From: Neobacillus drentensis | Lineage (GTDB): Bacteria; Bacillota; Bacilli; Bacillales; Cytobacillaceae | Assembly: GCF_021560175.1 (NCBI RefSeq) | Contig: NZ_CP091110.1 | Span: forward strand, 1,230,001-1,294,000 | Length of the DNA: 64,000 nucleotides | Direction of reading: 5' to 3' | In this document: one piece after another, positions 56,016 to 64,000 of the stretch | Layout of the letters: each line of letters starts with the position of its first letter | Numbering within the stretch: the first letter of the stretch is position 1 | The notes under the pieces: model-generated | Told to the model about the DNA's origin: nothing | Database searches by the model: none | The model's input: only the letters and a program-made list of their open reading frames with translations | Translations under genes and position numbers: made by a program

Positions 56016-56090
56016 AGTGACATGTTAACGATATAATAGTGACAACTTTAAAGTTTGGTTTTACTATTTAAAGAGGGAGGGGGAATACCT

Positions 56091-56363
56091 ATGCTAGTGA
56101 AGGTGTTTGCGAATCTTCGGCAAATTTGCGGAGGGGTAACCGTCGAGGTAAGTCCTGACGGTAATCGAGTGATTGATGTTTTAGATAAAATGATAGAAAT
56201 GTTTCCTGCGTTACAAGCTGAAATTTTTACGACTGAAAAAAGACTGCTTCCGTTTGTTCATGTGTATGTAAATGGCAGGAATATCATCCATCTTGATGAC
56301 CTTGAAACAAGGGTGAAGGATGAAGATCAATTTGCTCTCTTCCCGCCTGTAGCCGGAGGCTGA
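56091..56363 (+). CDS. MoaD/ThiS-like sulphur carrier protein
   Basis: A 90-residue ubiquitin-like protein ending in the diagnostic diglycine (PPVAGG). MoaD-type proteins carry sulphur as a C-terminal thiocarboxylate for pterin dithiolene synthesis. MLVKVFANLRQICGGVTVEV and the FPPVAGG end are typical. ATG 56091 has gggaggggg upstream. It is followed one base later by a 90-residue gene and lies near an AOR gene and an E1-like gene, so it probably serves the tungsten/molybdenum pterin cofactor of AOR. Confidence 0.85.
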   Translation: MLVKVFANLRQICGGVTVEVSPDGNRVIDVLDKMIEMFPALQAEIFTTEKRLLPFVHVYVNGRNIIHLDDLETRVKDEDQFALFPPVAGG

Positions 56364-56364
56364 T

Positions 56365-56637
56365 ATGTCAGAAATAGATTTAGAGTTTCGAGGAATCAAG
56401 ATAGACCATCTTGGCATGTATTTTCAAGAACTTGGGGCCATCCAGGTAACGGATACTTTTCCTTTTATCTATGAGGCTGAAGGGTGGAGCGGACAGATTT
56501 TATCAGAAGAGGAACTTGCGTTTACGGCCATCTTTAAGGTTAATGCAGTAAAGGTCCGTTTCATTGCTGAAGATGAAGATACATTGATGAAGGTTATAAA
56601 GAATTATCGTTATAAAACAACTAGGATTGGCGGATAG
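56365..56637 (+). CDS. 90-residue protein of the MoaD/AOR cassette, unknown
   Basis: The gene starts one base after the MoaD-like stop, so the two are translationally coupled. The 90-residue product begins MSEIDLEFRGIKIDHLGMYF and ends RYKTTRIGG, with a C-terminal Gly-Gly like a ubiquitin-like protein. It has a mixed alpha/beta composition and no cysteines. A relation to the MoaD-related C-terminal family (DUF1952) is possible, but I am not sure. A role in pterin cofactor assembly or AOR maturation is inferred from the neighbourhood. Confidence 0.6.
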   Translation: MSEIDLEFRGIKIDHLGMYFQELGAIQVTDTFPFIYEAEGWSGQILSEEELAFTAIFKVNAVKVRFIAEDEDTLMKVIKNYRYKTTRIGG

Positions 56638-56682: not shown

Positions 56683-58512
56683 TTACACTAATTGACTTTC
56701 AGAATCAATAATGCCTAATTCACGAAGCTTTTGTTCAGGGACTAATCCATCTTTCCAGCCGCGGACTTGATAATATTCTTCAAGCATAATATCCATCCGG
56801 CTTACATGACCTGCACTGTTTCCAGATGCAGGTTCTTCAGTAAACCGTTTTGGAAGGAAATCGTCTTCACGTTTATTAAAGCCTGCAAGGTTATTATAGT
56901 AACGCTCAAGATTGTAAATTCTTTCTCCGGCCTTCATCACATCATCAGCCGTCATTGGTATTCCAGTCATGGTACTGTACTGCTCTGCATAGTGCTCAGC
57001 ATTTTCCGAGAAAGAAGAGAACTTACAAATATTCATCGAATCTGAAAATGCCAGCATATCTTGGAATATTTTTAATAGTTCACCTTTTCCTTCTGGTTTT
57101 AATCGGTCGGTTGGCTCAGGTATACCTGCAATTTCACTAGCTACAGTGTAGCCGCGCAAGTGACAGGCACCACGGTTGCTAGTGGCATAACCAAGTCCGA
57201 TACCTTGGATTCCTCGTGGGTCGTAGGCCGGAATGGATTGACCTTTAACCGACATGGAAAGCTGTTGTGCACCCCAAGCAGCTGTTGCACGCGCAGGGCC
57301 TTCAGCAAGAATCCCGCCAAAACCTTCACGCAGGGCAATTTTTCTTGTTAATTCAATCATGGAGTCAGCGTCTCCCCAGATTAATTCTTCCTTTATAATC
57401 CCTTTTTCAAACGCTTCCATTGTTACGGAGAAGCAATGACCAAGCTCGATCGTATCGAGGCCGTATTCATTACAGCGGTCAATTAAATAAGAAATTGCTT
57501 GGGCGTCGCTTAAAAGACAGTTAGAGCCAAGTGACCAGGCAGATTCAAACTCTACACTTTCAACGCGCGTCTTATATTTACCATCTTTTACTTCTACTTC
57601 AATCTTGCAGCCTACCGGACAGGCATGGCAGGTGTTATTGGCAACACGAAGATGGGTGTTAACATATTCCCCACTGTGTTTTTCTGCCTCATCCCAGTGA
57701 GTTAGTTGCGAGTTTTTTGTTGGAAGCGCTCCCACTTCGTTGATTAGGTTTGTAAGCACATTCGTCCCATAGACGGATAATCCACCTTTGTTCGGTGCAG
57801 TTAAGCCGCCATCTAGTATTGCTTTAACAGCTTTCTTATTGGCTTCTTTGTATTCAGCCGCTAATTTAGGTGCAGGCATATTTCCTTTTTGGGCTGCTTT
57901 AATGACAATCGCTTTCATTTTCTTATAGCCTGCCACTGCGGCTGTTCCGCCCCGGCCGGCAGCACGATCATGCTCATTGATGAAAGCGGCAAAACGAACC
58001 GTATTTTCACCGGCTTGACCAATTGTCATGACACTTAGGTCTTGTTCACCGTATTGGTCTTTCATAGCTTGAATAAATGCTCTTGTGCTTGTTCCCCAAA
58101 GAGTAGAAGCATCGCGCAGTTCTGCTTTACCGTCTTCAATAAAAAGGTAAACAGGTTTATCACTTTTTCCTTTAAAAATAAGATTATCAATACCTGCCCA
58201 TTTAAGTCGTGCTGCGGTCCATCCGCCAATGTGAGAATCCGTAACTGTTCCTGTAAGCGGTGATTTAGTTACGACACAAAGACGTCCGCTCATCGACGAT
58301 CGAGTACCGGTGACAGGGCCTGTCATAAAACATAAAATGTTATCAGCAGATAATGGCTCAACTTCTGGGCCATTATCTAATACATATTTGACACCGAGAC
58401 CACGGCCGCCTATGTATTTTTTGGCATCCTCTTCATTAATAGGCCTGTAGTCCACTGTCCCACTTGTTAAGTCAACTAGAACTTCTTTGTTTTTGAAACC
58501 GCCAATACTCAT
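56683..58512 (-). CDS. aor: Aldehyde ferredoxin oxidoreductase (tungstopterin enzyme)
   Basis: AOR oxidises aldehydes to acids, or in reverse reduces acids, with ferredoxin as electron partner, using a tungsten bis-pterin and one [4Fe-4S] cluster. The 609-residue protein has the standard length and the cluster cysteines Cys295, Cys298, Cys302 (CHACPVGC) and Cys496, placed like those of Pyrococcus AOR (288, 291, 295, 494). Pterin-binding segments include GGRGLGVKYV, GRGGTAAVAGYKKMKAIVI and EFESAWSLGSNC. AOR is uncommon in Bacillaceae. The gene is convergent to the MoaD operon and divergent from the E1-like gene. Confidence 0.93.
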   Translation of the reverse strand: MSIGGFKNKEVLVDLTSGTVDYRPINEEDAKKYIGGRGLGVKYVLDNGPEVEPLSADNILCFMTGPVTGTRSSMSGRLCVVTKSPLTGTVTDSHIGGWTAARLKWAGIDNLIFKGKSDKPVYLFIEDGKAELRDASTLWGTSTRAFIQAMKDQYGEQDLSVMTIGQAGENTVRFAAFINEHDRAAGRGGTAAVAGYKKMKAIVIKAAQKGNMPAPKLAAEYKEANKKAVKAILDGGLTAPNKGGLSVYGTNVLTNLINEVGALPTKNSQLTHWDEAEKHSGEYVNTHLRVANNTCHACPVGCKIEVEVKDGKYKTRVESVEFESAWSLGSNCLLSDAQAISYLIDRCNEYGLDTIELGHCFSVTMEAFEKGIIKEELIWGDADSMIELTRKIALREGFGGILAEGPARATAAWGAQQLSMSVKGQSIPAYDPRGIQGIGLGYATSNRGACHLRGYTVASEIAGIPEPTDRLKPEGKGELLKIFQDMLAFSDSMNICKFSSFSENAEHYAEQYSTMTGIPMTADDVMKAGERIYNLERYYNNLAGFNKREDDFLPKRFTEEPASGNSAGHVSRMDIMLEEYYQVRGWKDGLVPEQKLRELGIIDSESQLV

Positions 58513-58722: not shown

Positions 58723-59751
58723 ATGAATGATTTAGCACGGTATTCGAGACAAATCCTTTTTCCTAGTATTGGGGAAGAAGGACAGAGGAATATGCTGAGG
58801 AGCCGGGTGGCAATCGTTGGGGCAGGGGCACTTGGTACGGTGATTGCCAATCATCTTGTTCGCTCTGGTGTAGGATATATAAGGTTAATCGATCGGGATT
58901 TAGTAGAATGGTCCAATCTGCAGCGGCAAATTCTCTATACAGAGGAGGATGCGCGCAGGCAGCTTCCAAAGGCCATCGCCGCTCAAGAAAGGCTGAAGGA
59001 TATCAATTCGACTGTTATGGTTGATGCCGTTATAGCCGACTTAAATCTGGACAATGCCGAAGAGTTATTAACAGGTATGGACGCTATCGTTGATGGAACT
59101 GATAATTTTATGACCCGTTTTTTAATTAATGATGTTGCTGTCAAGTATCGGATTCCCTGGGTACATGGAGCAGCAGTAAGTTCACGGGGAATGTTTGCTG
59201 TCATTAAACCGGGAGTAACCCCCTGTTACCGTTGTCTTTTTCCAAATGTTCCGAGCGGAAATGGAGAGACTTGTGATACAGTGGGTGTATTGTCACCCTT
59301 AACCGATATCATCGGATCTTTTCAGGCTATGGAAACAATGAAGCTATTAGTGGGGGCAGAAACCACTCCTAATCTAGAACAAATTGATATTTGGGACCTA
59401 TCTTCCATGCAAATGGATATTTCACAAGGCAGGAATCCTAATTGTCCTACATGTGGACAAGGTCATTTTGATTTTTTAGACCGCTCCTCAGGCCATCAGG
59501 TAGCTTATACAACCCTTTGCGGCCGCGATACAGTACAAATCAATCCAAGACATAAAAGAGAGTTAGATCTAAAGAAGACAGCCGGGAACCTTCTAAAAAG
59601 TGGAAAAGTATCGGTTAATGAATTTTTACTCCGTTTTTCTCCGGATGATGGAGTAACTATTGTGGTCTTTAAAGATGCCCGCGTTCTCATCCATGGAACA
59701 AATGATATAGCAAAAGCTAAACAGCTATACGCTAAATATATAGGAAGTTAA
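58723..59751 (+). CDS. MoeB/ThiF-family E1-like adenylyltransferase
   Basis: A 342-residue E1-like enzyme that adenylates the C-terminal glycine of MoaD/ThiS-type carriers. Visible: nucleotide-binding VAIVGAGALGTVIANHLVRS, LIDRDLVEWSNLQRQ, DGTDNFMTRFLINDVAVK, the zinc CxxC pairs CYRC and CPTC, and the ETCDTVGVLSP loop with the catalytic cysteine. A further C-terminal domain of about 85 residues after the zinc site is not a rhodanese by eye. Its partner is probably the MoaD-like protein 2.6 kb away, with the AOR gene between them. Confidence 0.88.
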   Translation: MNDLARYSRQILFPSIGEEGQRNMLRSRVAIVGAGALGTVIANHLVRSGVGYIRLIDRDLVEWSNLQRQILYTEEDARRQLPKAIAAQERLKDINSTVMVDAVIADLNLDNAEELLTGMDAIVDGTDNFMTRFLINDVAVKYRIPWVHGAAVSSRGMFAVIKPGVTPCYRCLFPNVPSGNGETCDTVGVLSPLTDIIGSFQAMETMKLLVGAETTPNLEQIDIWDLSSMQMDISQGRNPNCPTCGQGHFDFLDRSSGHQVAYTTLCGRDTVQINPRHKRELDLKKTAGNLLKSGKVSVNEFLLRFSPDDGVTIVVFKDARVLIHGTNDIAKAKQLYAKYIGS

Positions 59752-60350: not shown

Positions 60351-60583
60351 CTCTAACCTCCGTACACAGTTGCTTTCATTTTTCTTTTTTGACATCTTCG
60401 TGCCTTTTTATAACCAGGTTATTTTTGAAATCTTAAGTATAAAAAATTTTATCCAGAAGAATCCGTGTTCCATGTAGCATTTGTATCATTCTATTTAGGA
60501 CAATTAACCATTTAATCTGGGCTGAATAGTATAGAGCATGTAATACCTGTTCAGTTATTTATTTGTAAGGGAGTGAGATGCGA

Positions 60584-62431
60584 ATGTGCGGAATCTCAGG
60601 ATGGGTTAATTTTAATAAAGTAATAAAAAACGAAACGGAAACACTTGTGAAAATGGCGAATACATTGGCAAAAAGAGGTCCAGATGAAACAAATACCTGG
60701 CAGGATACACACGCCTGCTTTGGTCATAAAAGACTGATTGTGGTTGACCCTGAAGGTGGAAGACAGCCAATGACCAAACACAAAGAGGGTTTTGATTACA
60801 CCATTTGCTACAATGGAGAATTATATAACACTGAAGATCTTCGCAAAATCCTTCTTACTAAAGGATATTCTTTTAAAGGTCATTCTGATACAGAAGTACT
60901 GTTAACTGCCTATATAGAATGGGCGGAAGAGTGCGTCAATCATTTAAATGGAATCTTTGCTTTTGCTATTTGGGATCCAAAAAGAGAACAGCTCTTTATC
61001 GGACGAGACCGTCTTGGCGTCAAACCATTATTCTTTACAGAACATCAAAAAGGGATTATCTTTGCATCAGAAATTAAGGCTATTCTAGCTCATCCAGAAA
61101 TCAAAACAGAGATCACTCATGAGGGGCTGGCAGAGGTCCTTGGAGTAGGTCCTTCTAGAACACCAGGATCTGGTATTTTCAAAGGGATGCAAGAACTGCG
61201 GCCTGCCCATGCTTTAACTTTGTCACGAAACGGCTTAAAGGTTTGGCGTTATTGGAATGTAAAGAGTGAGGAACATAAGGAAAATGTGGAGGAAACAGCC
61301 GAAAAGGTACGATACTTAGTTACGGACGCAGTAACAAGACAGCTGGTTTCCGACGTACCATTGTGTACCTTTTTATCGGGCGGCCTTGATTCCAGTATTA
61401 TCACAGCGATTGCTGCGAAAGGATTTGCAGATCAGGGAAAGGGGCAGCTTCATACTTATTCGATTGATTATGAAGGAAATGACCTGCATTTCACTTCGAA
61501 TGAATTCCAGCCAGATGCAGATGGAACATTCATTCAAATGATGACGGAAAAGTTTGCTACCCAGCATCACAACAAAACCATCTCACAAGAACAATTAGTT
61601 CATGACCTGGTAGAGGCCACTGCTGTTCGAGATTTTCCTGGAATGGCGGATGTGGATTCCTCGCTGCTTTGGTTTTGTAAAGAAATTAAAAAGGATTTTG
61701 TTGTTAGTTTGTCTGGAGAATGTGCAGATGAGATTTTCGGTGGATATCCGTGGTTTCATCGTAAACAGGATTTAGAGCGGCCAGGTTTTCCTTGGATGCG
61801 TTCCGTTAACGAGCGGCAAAATCTTCTGAAGCCGTATTGGCGGGATCAATTAAAATTAAGTGAATTTTCTATGAATCAGTATCAACAGGCCATAGCTGAA
61901 GCTCCAAAATTCGAAGGCGAAAGCATGGAAGAAGCAAAGCGGAGAGAATTATTCTATATTAATATGACCTGGTTTATGACGACCTTACTTGATCGAAAAG
62001 ATAGAATGAGTATGGGGGCCAGCCTTGAGGTCCGGGTACCATTTGCCGACCATCGTCTTGTAGAATATCTGTGGAATATCCCATGGGATATGAAAATGTA
62101 TCGAGGCAGAGAAAAAGGACTTCTCCGCAAAGCTTTTGAAGGAATTCTGCCTGAAGAAGTCCTTTATCGGAAGAAAAGTCCATATCCAAAAACACATAAT
62201 CCTGAATATACTGCCGCTATACAAAAATGGATGGGTACCATCTTACAGGATAAATCTTCGATATTGCATGAGTTTTTCCAAAAGGAACAGCTTCAAAGCA
62301 TTGTGGAGACCGGCGGGGATTCATTTAAGGAGCCTTGGTTCGGCCAGCTAATGACAGGTCCGCAATTGTTAGCCTATCTTGTTCAGTTCCATACATGGTT
62401 TAAGAACTATAATATTAATATCGTAAATTAG
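60584..62431 (+). CDS. asnO: Asparagine synthetase (glutamine-hydrolysing), AsnO type
   Basis: A 615-residue class II glutamine amidotransferase plus ATP-pyrophosphatase that makes asparagine from aspartate. ATG 60584 must be used, since Cys2 (MCGISGW) is the amidase nucleophile; ATG 60578 would add two residues before it. The glutaminase domain has CYNGELYN and the synthetase domain has TFLSGGLDSSIIT and SLSGECADEIFGGYPWF. Length and location (yis region) fit B. subtilis AsnO (YisO, 614), which is sporulation-related. Confidence 0.93.
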   Translation: MCGISGWVNFNKVIKNETETLVKMANTLAKRGPDETNTWQDTHACFGHKRLIVVDPEGGRQPMTKHKEGFDYTICYNGELYNTEDLRKILLTKGYSFKGHSDTEVLLTAYIEWAEECVNHLNGIFAFAIWDPKREQLFIGRDRLGVKPLFFTEHQKGIIFASEIKAILAHPEIKTEITHEGLAEVLGVGPSRTPGSGIFKGMQELRPAHALTLSRNGLKVWRYWNVKSEEHKENVEETAEKVRYLVTDAVTRQLVSDVPLCTFLSGGLDSSIITAIAAKGFADQGKGQLHTYSIDYEGNDLHFTSNEFQPDADGTFIQMMTEKFATQHHNKTISQEQLVHDLVEATAVRDFPGMADVDSSLLWFCKEIKKDFVVSLSGECADEIFGGYPWFHRKQDLERPGFPWMRSVNERQNLLKPYWRDQLKLSEFSMNQYQQAIAEAPKFEGESMEEAKRRELFYINMTWFMTTLLDRKDRMSMGASLEVRVPFADHRLVEYLWNIPWDMKMYRGREKGLLRKAFEGILPEEVLYRKKSPYPKTHNPEYTAAIQKWMGTILQDKSSILHEFFQKEQLQSIVETGGDSFKEPWFGQLMTGPQLLAYLVQFHTWFKNYNINIVN

Positions 62432-62476: not shown

Positions 62477-62505
62477 TTGGAATAAAGGCAGGATTAGATT
62501 AAAAT
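62477..62505 (+). promoter_or_regulatory. Candidate sigma-A promoter before the GH13-like gene
   Basis: TTGGAA (62477-62482) and TAAAAT (62500-62505) are 17 bases apart, with an expected start site near 62512, directly before a GC-containing hairpin. Confidence 0.5.
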
Positions 62506-62512
62506 ATTTAGT

Positions 62513-62542
62513 GGAAGAGGGAACCTTTCCTCTTCCTTTTTT
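62513..62542 (+). terminator. Terminator-like hairpin between asnO and the GH13-like gene
   Basis: An 8-bp stem ggaagagg / cctcttcc with an 8-base loop and six T ends two bases before the RBS aaggagg of the next gene. It can terminate asnO, or serve as leader attenuator or 5'-end stabiliser of the next mRNA. Confidence 0.75.
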
Positions 62543-62557
62543 AAGGAGGAAAATGCC

Positions 62558-64000
62558 GTGAAAAAAATAACGTTATTATTATTAACCTTTTTACTTTGCT
62601 CAAGCCTTCCTGCTCATGCGGAAATAAAAAAGGAAAACCGCTTATGGCAGGATGAATCCATTTACTCGCTTATGGTGGACCGTTTTAATGATGGAAATAT
62701 AAAAAATGATCTTAATGTAGACGCGAAAAACCCCTTAGCGTACAATGGCGGTGATTTTCAGGGGATCATTGACAAATTAGATTACATACATGATATGGGC
62801 TTTACAGCCATTCGGTTAACTCCAATCTTTGATAATACACAAAATGGGTACCATGGTTATTGGGTAAAGGACTTTTATAAAACCGATGAGCATTTTGGCA
62901 CAATCAAGACTTTTCAGGAGCTTGTAAAAGAAGCTCATAAGCGAAAAATGAGAGTTATTATTGATTTTGTGGCTAATAATACCGCTGCGGATCATCCGTG
63001 GGTAAGTGATCCTGCCAAAAAGAATTGGTATCACCCCAATCAGGAAAATGATGAAGGAACGAATGGCTGGGTAGATGGTTTGCCTGACCTTAATCAGGAC
63101 AACCCTGAAGTAAATAAATATCTGATAGATGCCGCCAAATGGTGGATTACCAAAACGGATATCGACGGGTATAGCCTGCCCGAAGTCAATCAAGTTCCAT
63201 TAAGTTTCTGGACTGATTTTTCAAAAGCCGTTAAGAAAGTGAAGAAGGATTTCTTCTTAATGGGTGTCCCGCAGGATAATGCGGCAATAGATGTAGCTAA
63301 GTATCAGAACGCAGGAATCGACAGCGTATTCGATAATGCGAAAAGTAAGAATATGAGAAAGGCGTTTGCCACCACAAACCAATCCTTTTCTGATTTGGAC
63401 GTATCTTCAAATCACAATGGAAAACCAGAATTAATGGCGAACTTTTTTGATAATGAGTATACAGCAAGATTTACGGCTGATATCGTGGAGAAACGACAAT
63501 TTCCAGGTTCTCGGTGGAAAACTGCGTTGACATATCTATATACAACCCCAGGTATACCGATTTATTATTATGGAACGGACATAGCCTTAAATGGTGGAAA
63601 AACTCCTGATAATCGCAGGCAAATGAATTTCCGGACTGAGAAGGACCTGATTGACTATACCACCAAAATTTCCGAGTTAAGAAATAAGCTGCCTTCTTTA
63701 ACAAGAGGGACCATGGAAATGCTCTATGATAAAGGCGGGATGGTTGTTTATAAGCGCATTTATAAGGGCGAAACTTCGATTATTGCAATTAATAATTCCA
63801 CAAAATCACAAAAGGTGATTTTAACGGACAAGCAATTAGCTGCTGATAAGGAACTTCGTGGTTTACTTGCCGGGGATATAGTCCGCAGTCACAAGAATGA
63901 CTACATCCTTATAGTAGACCGGGATAATTCGGAAATCTATGTCCTTACTGAAAAAAGCGGCATTAACTTTACCTTTATTGCGGCTTTAGTTGGAGTGGGG
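62558..64000 (+). CDS. Secreted alpha-amylase-fold (GH13) protein lacking catalytic residues (partial, runs off the window)
   Basis: 481 codons are inside the window; the stop is beyond it. GTG 62558 follows aaggagg. A signal peptide (KKITLLLLTFLLCSSLPAHA) precedes a GH13 barrel: IYSLMVDRFNDG, GDFQGIIDKLDYIHDMGFTA, and the four conserved regions. All are degenerate: region I DFVANN (His replaced by Asn141), region II DGYSLPEV (Arg replaced by Ser206, nucleophile Asp by Pro208), region III LMGVPQ (acid/base Glu replaced by Val237), region IV FFDNEY (NHD replaced by N-Glu300-Tyr301). The C-terminal end (GINFTFIAALVGVG) looks like the start of a membrane anchor. It is therefore likely a non-catalytic, wall-side carbohydrate-binding or structural protein. 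Confidence 0.85.
   Translation, partial: MKKITLLLLTFLLCSSLPAHAEIKKENRLWQDESIYSLMVDRFNDGNIKNDLNVDAKNPLAYNGGDFQGIIDKLDYIHDMGFTAIRLTPIFDNTQNGYHGYWVKDFYKTDEHFGTIKTFQELVKEAHKRKMRVIIDFVANNTAADHPWVSDPAKKNWYHPNQENDEGTNGWVDGLPDLNQDNPEVNKYLIDAAKWWITKTDIDGYSLPEVNQVPLSFWTDFSKAVKKVKKDFFLMGVPQDNAAIDVAKYQNAGIDSVFDNAKSKNMRKAFATTNQSFSDLDVSSNHNGKPELMANFFDNEYTARFTADIVEKRQFPGSRWKTALTYLYTTPGIPIYYYGTDIALNGGKTPDNRRQMNFRTEKDLIDYTTKISELRNKLPSLTRGTMEMLYDKGGMVVYKRIYKGETSIIAINNSTKSQKVILTDKQLAADKELRGLLAGDIVRSHKNDYILIVDRDNSEIYVLTEKSGINFTFIAALVGVG

Follow-up and report, generated by a model that had tools for sequence, protein, structure and literature searches.

The closest described relatives of the protein studied here belong to the bacterial alpha-amylase group GH13_45, whose marks are a Trp pair in helix alpha-3 and an LPDIx or LPDLx motif in CSR-V (PMC5347038, PMC11448133, both in their accessible text), together with a C-terminal region that holds a transmembrane helix and five aromatic residues (PMC11448133, likewise). 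According to the accessible parts of the same two reports, BmaN1 from Bacillus megaterium NL3 lacks two of the canonical triad residues and was reported to be active: the partially purified enzyme with its incomplete triad gave 8.4 U/mg (PMC5347038), and enzyme from E. coli gave 1.5–1.7 U/mg in the study that places BmaN1 in GH13_45 and describes a transmembrane helix near its C-terminus (PMC11448133). Members of the group without any triad were already noticed in 2017, when seven relatives (Nos 28–34) clustering with BaqA were found to have all three triad positions substituted "without an obvious regularity" (PMC5347038, accessible text). In that text we found no analysis of context, selection or repeated origin, and, judged by titles and the first lines of abstracts, no paper in the open literature searched that treats triad-less GH13_45 proteins in terms of operon loss or selection.

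A second point of comparison comes from animals. The ectodomains of 4F2hc and rBAT are anchored amylase-fold domains with no proven activity that serve as heavy subunits of transporters, and 4F2hc is without key catalytic residues and domain B (PMC8537225, accessible text).

Here we analyzed 64,000 nucleotides of Neobacillus drentensis DNA (the window), at the end of which lies a gene for a relative of the GH13_45 amylases that has lost its catalytic residues. Its link to a maltodextrin operon, the repeated origin of such genes, their genus-wide retention and a shift of constraint between domains were not found in our search of the open literature and are in that sense new here.

Architecture of the protein and its former active site

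The gene (62558..64000; plus strand, as are all its parts given below) starts with GTG, follows a ribosome-binding site (AAGGAGG, 62543..62549) and has its 3' part beyond the window. In a 20 kb stretch of the same genome the complete gene (L009:10558-12063) comprises 501 codons and a stop, so that the window omits its last 63 bases and the stop would end at 64063 in window numbering. The product begins with a putative signal peptide (residues 1–22, 62558..62623) that has a hydrophobic N-terminus and an AHA cleavage-like site; the N-terminus is hydrophobic in all 58 Neobacillus copies, that is, the window's and the 57 orthologues described below. Domain C (Pfam Alpha-amylase_C_2, 63707..63961) is followed by the start of a predicted transmembrane helix (63968..64000), with 60 further coding bases beyond the window. 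With the 20 residues encoded beyond the window included, the C-terminal stretch forms a complete, single transmembrane-like segment, which is followed by RGRKAKVN; three aromatic residues, all Phe, occur after residue 468. Such a hydrophobic segment is present in 58/58 genus copies and in 47/47 other copies with a non-intact catalytic set (105/105).

The fold and subfamily of the protein are clear. Pfam profiles match with E-values of 2.9e-48 (Alpha-amylase, PF00128) and 8.7e-32 (Alpha-amylase_C_2), with PF22026 listed alongside PF00128 for the barrel and domains B and C. The closest solved structures are GH13_45 amylases from Anoxybacillus and Geobacillus (5a2b, E = 1.8e-163; 4e2o, 1.3e-150), and the next best structure reaches only 3.8e-45. 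An AlphaFold2 model of the part inside the window, built with 43 relatives, has a pLDDT of 86.8 and superposes on 5a2c with a TM score of 0.95 by target and 0.89 by query at 55% identity (Foldseek), so that profiles and model both give the (beta/alpha)8 barrel with domains B and C that defines GH13. With its closest characterized enzymes in GH13_45, the protein also has that group's Trp pair (W195-W196, in AKWWITK) and CSR-V LPDL motif (GLPDLNQ). Compared with the GH13_45 amylases (GTA, 4e2o; Anoxybacillus, 5a2a-c; BaqA), it shows 51–55% fold-alignment identity with those of solved structure and has in common with them the A, B and C domains, the Trp pair, LPDL, the signal peptide and the C-terminal anchor region; unlike them, it has no triad, none of the Arg and His residues of regions I, II and IV, and no maltodextrin operon. 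Even a far diverged dead copy from Oceanobacillus (L163) is predicted to have a barrel, domain C and one long membrane helix.

Alignment to the solved enzymes and to 53 intact homologues (51 distinct genes) locates the losses. Of the Asp-Glu-Asp triad that an active GH13 enzyme has, the nucleophile is replaced in the window protein by P208, and its neighboring Arg by S206, in region II (IDGYSLPEVN, 63161..63190); the acid/base Glu is replaced by V237 in region III (FFLMGVP, 63251..63271); and the stabilizing Asp is replaced by Y301, and the preceding His by E300, in region IV (FFDNEY, 63443..63460). The His of region I (DFVANN, 62963..62980) is N141, and domain B follows directly (residues 142–187, 62981..63118). 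In written form the changes are D208P, E237V and D301Y in the triad and R206S, H141N and H300E in its support. The loss is general in the genus: an acidic triad residue at position 208, 237 or 301 is found in 0/58 copies, and the changes are not due to chance, since P208 and E300 occur in 58/58 and position 237 is I, V or L in 58/58.

The original prediction, made from the window's letters alone, had proposed a GH13 barrel with these six substitutions in an intact 481-codon frame with a signal peptide and a ribosome-binding site. The barrel is borne out by the profiles and by the comparison with 5a2c, all six substitutions were correctly named and, as suggested there, could be followed through the aligned regions of relatives, and the frame is real, running on to 501 codons. 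Its proposal of membrane anchoring also stood, and its placement on an outer membrane face did not: Gram-positive bacteria lack an outer membrane, and the protein is predicted to sit on the outside of the cytoplasmic membrane. Other acidic residues in the site, which it named as grounds for doubt, do not form a conserved alternative acid/base pair in the 58 copies.

Incomplete catalytic machinery within the same amylase group is common to the window protein, BmaN1 and Nos 28–34, and the latter might include the Neobacillus clade, as far as the accessible text of PMC5347038 specifies them. BmaN1, with Lys202/Asp203, Glu231 and His294, was reported to hydrolyze starch (PMC5347038, PMC11448133, accessible text), and the window protein might by analogy still be an enzyme with an unorthodox catalytic set, using the acid E209 one place past the lost nucleophile or the new E300. 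We consider this improbable. In place of the aberrant Lys-Asp, retained Glu and His of BmaN1 the window protein reads P208-E209, V237 and Y301; BmaN1 keeps its acid/base Glu231, whereas that residue is gone, replaced by I, V or L, in 58/58 genus copies; and R206, H141 and H300 are lost as well. As a replacement nucleophile E209 was rejected because it is not conserved, being A, G or Q in 6/58 genus copies, and E300 as a replacement catalytic acid because, invariant as it is, it stands alone, without a conserved acid/base pair. Judging from these residues, the window protein probably has no enzymatic activity. The former catalytic corner now holds an invariant set of its own in the genus (S37, R86, P208 and E300), perhaps a repacked core.

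Repeated loss of the triad and its link to a maltodextrin operon

We compared the window's locus with the best 80 matches of a larger scan, a sample whose counts are not prevalences, taking about 9 kb on each side where the contig allowed (the upstream side of L144 is off its contig). All of R206, D208, E237, H300 and D301 are present in 36 of these 81 loci, here called intact, and 45 loci lack at least one. In a tree of 79 rows built without the motif columns from this sample (L164, L172 and L144 left out), the state changes eight times, five of these changes are forced by supported branches, and a single origin appears in 0% of 200 bootstrap trees. A quick tree of 82 rows likewise gives eight changes, four of them forced, and on it, assuming no regain, each of six catalytic or supporting residues was lost 8 to 13 times. 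Non-intact copies thus arose repeatedly in Bacillaceae at one chromosomal place. In Bacillus methanolicus PB1 (L136), the nucleophile alone is lost among the five scored positions.

In a typical intact locus, genes for the binding protein and two permeases of a maltodextrin ABC transporter lead into the amylase gene, which is followed by a LacI-type gene; beyond the transporter genes, on the opposite strand, lies a cyclomaltodextrinase-like GH13 gene. The permease genes are found in 34/36 intact versus 2/45 non-intact loci of the window plus the best 80 (Fisher, 5e-18, kinship ignored). Among 40 order-level genomes, 26 have by our reading a GH13_45 gene, and MalF is encoded within 10 kb in 16/17 intact and 2/9 non-intact cases (Fisher, 4e-4). 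When only supported independent pairs are compared, operon and triad agree in an average of 4.9 of 5, and a sign test gives 0.0625 at five pairs, which is above 0.05. The outer flanks are largely alike in both kinds of locus, with YisL-, asnO-, SDR-, YajQ-, DegV- and YitT-like genes (named by eye). In the window, the frequent upstream neighbor is at 60578..62431 (plus strand) and encodes what we take from its sequence to be an asnO-like asparagine synthetase; it is context and lies outside the unit. Across the 81 loci, flanked by core genes, we saw neither a partner gene consistently in one operon with dead copies nor a transporter gene as their regular neighbor.

An absolute coupling of operon loss and triad loss is ruled out by exceptions. 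Non-intact copies lie beside mal genes at L135, G082/L082 and G092/L088 and near them at L143, and intact copies have no mal genes nearby at G085/L065, L170 and L172, the upstream part of L172 possibly being off its 4.7 kb contig. Two genomes have copies of both kinds. Bacillus sp. EB01 (L143:8992-16513) carries a dead GH13_45 gene (RSDQD) and, beyond malE/F/G, a second, intact copy (RDEHD). Paucisalibacillus globulus has a dead copy at the usual place (L152) and an intact one with mal genes elsewhere (L125), which groups with Fictibacillus, suggesting that L125 was acquired later.

Within Neobacillus the gene is independent of a maltodextrin transporter, since 35/60 genus genomes have no MalF relative of at least 60% identity: 34/60 have no match at E 1e-60, and G047 has a 38% match only. 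The other 25/60 have such a relative, which in no case shares a contig with the gene at a distance of 10 kb or less; in many genomes just the best 17 candidates were scored. In the window's own genome the one MalF relative (65% identity) is 0.75 Mb away, and a maltodextrin glucosidase model gave no match over its cut-off there, a result of little weight given that the model passes in only 1/14 control genomes.

Traces of the operon can be seen upstream of some dead genes. The motif TTTGACG-N-TAATCTTA (spacer 17–18) scores at least 13/15 in 10/35 intact loci, always inside the end of malG, and reaches the same score in 13/42 non-intact loci other than L135, 62–89 nt upstream of the start codon, a region in which none of the 60 shuffles per locus scored above 13; these counts are from the best 80 and omit L144, with its short upstream part, and L009. 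Since the motif had been derived from these very loci, a comparison of the spacers is the fairer test, as the spacer sequence can change without loss of a promoter. Set against nine malG ends (L100, the same stretch as L099, omitted), the spacers of 9/13 dead loci beat their shuffles at p < 0.08 and four did not (combined p 1e-8, with L123 and L131 being close relatives and so not fully independent). The simplest reading of these remains is that the upstream operon genes were deleted and the promoter in the malG tail was left in place.

The Neobacillus copies have a different promoter-like element from the malG-end motif of these thirteen loci. It reads TTGGAA-17-TAAAAT in the window (62477..62505), is common across the genus and appears to be of sigma-A type by eye; a pattern built from the same sequences matches 54 of the 57 genus copies for which 60 nt or more of upstream sequence were available (L017 left out). 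A sporulation promoter at this position was considered and dropped because of that sigma-A-like appearance. Between the element and the ribosome-binding site lies a hairpin followed by a T run (GGAAGAGG...CCTCTTCC, 62513..62542), which occurs 3' of the promoter-like element in 31/57 genus copies and is missing in a subclade. Terminator-like in form, it would come close to the start of the transcript and could serve as an attenuator or stabilize the mRNA as a stem-loop; Rfam matches to the upstream sequence fell far below the gathering score and were to unrelated sRNA families.

The dead genes could also be one ancient, separate paralogue family and not amylases orphaned again and again. They do cluster in a few large clades, and P. 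globulus and Bacillus sp. EB01 have both kinds, as such a family would allow. However, dead copies are interspersed with intact ones on the tree, with its eight changes and its lack of any single-origin bootstrap tree; the flanks are largely common to both; the lineages lose different residues; and thirteen dead loci keep malG-end remains. Of all the accounts weighed here, we give this one the least credence.

Some distance upstream in the window, 2–5 genes before asnO, a trio of genes encodes MoaD/ThiS-like (56055-56637, plus strand), aldehyde:ferredoxin-oxidoreductase-like (56683-58512, minus) and ThiF/MoeB-like (58723-59751, plus) products, as judged by eye; relatives of the latter two are near the gene in four named loci.

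Retention and shifted constraint in Neobacillus

In a scan of 100 related genomes, which has seven identical genes in common with the best-80 locus sample, 57 of 59 same-genus relatives have an orthologue, giving 58 copies with that of the window, and two (G039 and G050) have no GH13_45 copy. Orthologues with an intact triad exist, and all those in our set come from outside Neobacillus. Over 123 genus pairs with dS of 0.1–1.2, duplicates removed, the median dN/dS is 0.118 (range 0.084–0.302; a set of 145 pairs that included duplicates and mixed groups gave nearly the same domain values). The corresponding value for intact copies is 0.055 (eight pairs), so that genus rates are about twice as high, and non-intact copies outside the genus give a median of 0.169 in five usable pairs, with a maximum of 0.602 near saturation.

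The doubled rate, the two genomes without the gene, the outside-genus maximum and an internal stop in one copy (G080/L087) are what a functionless relic in slow decay might display. Decay would predict a dN/dS near 1 and frequent frameshifts, whereas the genus value stays low over dS up to 1.2, the anchor-like segment is present in every non-intact copy, the upstream element is kept in nearly all genus copies and the gene itself is present in 57 of 59 genus relatives. We therefore hold a relic to be very improbable. Purifying selection is also what the original prediction had implied in calling the frame not randomly decaying and in suggesting that dN/dS be measured; its own counter-scenario, a recent pseudogene, does not fit a genus in which all copies are without triad residues and selection is this evident. 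As far as sequence can say, the reading of the gene as a kept pseudoenzyme is right: barrel, catalytic loss, non-random decay and anchoring held up, with the outer-membrane wording as the part to be discarded and the suggested binding of sugar or partner proteins as a possibility. As a separate observation, the stop just mentioned, a TAG inside the frame of an order-level copy, indicates that true gene death also occurs in the GH13_45 family.

Constraint is not evenly distributed over the protein. Dividing the dN of each domain by the dS of the whole gene, with A1 and A2 as the barrel halves, we obtained genus versus intact rates of 0.177 versus 0.007 for domain B, 0.080 versus 0.040 for A1, 0.120 versus 0.039 for A2 and 0.081 versus 0.071 for domain C. 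The barrel and domain B are thus relaxed in the genus and domain C hardly, its constraint there being nearly that of the intact enzymes; the tail with the membrane segment evolves faster (0.149 versus 0.059) and is still hydrophobic. In dN/dS terms the constancy of domain C applies to the genus only, since five non-intact pairs outside it give 0.166. Domain B, the most relaxed part, is wholly gone in six genus copies (L076, L077, L079, L080, L081 and L084), with frames still open.

We also compared protein distances over disjoint pairs; because the intact copies come from a broader range of taxa (Clostridia, Exiguobacterium) than the genus copies, the domain ratios may be affected. The ratio of domain C to A1 is 3.15 in intact copies (25 pairs), 1.46 in other dead copies (20 pairs; p 2e-6 against intact) and 1.28 in the genus (28 pairs; p 3e-8). 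Relative to A1, domain B rises in both dead classes (p 0.009 and 0.019), A2 shows no class difference (p 0.79 and 0.27), and the anchor part has a lower ratio in dead copies outside the genus and not within it.

These patterns bear on whether the old cleft has turned into a lectin, which would bind an alpha-glucan or another surface sugar uncut and feed enzymes or transporters. Within the genus there is something to be said for it. Residues that we assign to subsites -1 and -2 from general knowledge of GH13 are largely kept (H99 in 57, Y101 in 48 with F in the other 10, W102 in 55, D351 in 58 and R353 in 51 of the 58 copies), the new invariant corner of S37, R86, P208 and E300 is compatible with a new pocket, and 25/60 genomes encode a MalF relative elsewhere. 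Conversely, among 47 dead copies from other lineages, R353 survives in 6, D351 in 19 (with E in 19 more) and W102 in 29; the remaining 35/60 genus genomes have no such MalF relative; and domain B, which forms one wall of the cleft, is the part most relaxed and, in six genus copies, deleted. With domain B lost in these copies and -2 residues lost in many others, the old sugar cleft is unlikely to be a shared working surface, and the residues point away from a cleft common to the dead lineages. We regard the lectin as unlikely, although it deserves more weight than an unorthodox enzyme.

A proposed surface role and its implications

Our results lead us to favor, with modest confidence, a model in which the window protein is a non-catalytic, membrane-anchored surface protein, orphaned from its operon, that would work through domain C, its shell and its anchor. 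A surface role of this kind is favored because constraint has moved and because the old cleft is not common to the dead lineages. The ancestor would have been a GH13_45 alpha-amylase in an operon of cyclomaltodextrinase, malE, malF, malG, amylase and a LacI-type regulator, sited between asnO and the SDR gene, and the window gene would be its in-place descendant. The operon may then have been lost from this spot, with the amylase gene staying behind. The catalytic residues would have decayed subsequently, with purifying selection still acting on export, anchoring, the fold and domain C, and we infer that operon loss came before triad loss. Instead of cutting starch, the protein would now hold a partner, either a protein or an envelope polymer, in a binding or scaffold role.

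That catalysis was lost repeatedly while one anchored protein stayed where it was on the chromosome suggests that the amylase had another job. A broader proposal, which we advance tentatively and rate as possible but short of probable, is that GH13_45 amylases are two-job proteins, in which starch cutting accompanies an older or parallel non-catalytic surface job of domain C and the anchor that outlives operon loss as catalysis dies. Such a second job becomes testable in culturable bacteria. If the proposal is true, these proteins would be to bacteria what the SLC3 heavy subunits are to animals, having evolved to that state several times. Like 4F2hc and rBAT, the window protein is predicted from its sequence to present an extracytoplasmic amylase-fold domain, dead or dispensable as an enzyme, on a single membrane helix. 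The likeness is one of plan and not of anchor homology: the anchor is N-terminal in SLC3 and C-terminal here, one group is found in animals and the other in Bacillaceae, and their origins were presumably independent.

The interest of the system lies in its repetition, with an amylase outlasting both its operon and its own catalysis. One practical implication is that many Bacillaceae genes that would be annotated as alpha-amylases are probably not amylases. GH13_45-like genes with about 51% identity also occur on Cytobacillus plasmids of 340–390 kb (NZ_CP085391.1, NZ_CP097350.1, NZ_CP085393.1 and NZ_CP015507.1).
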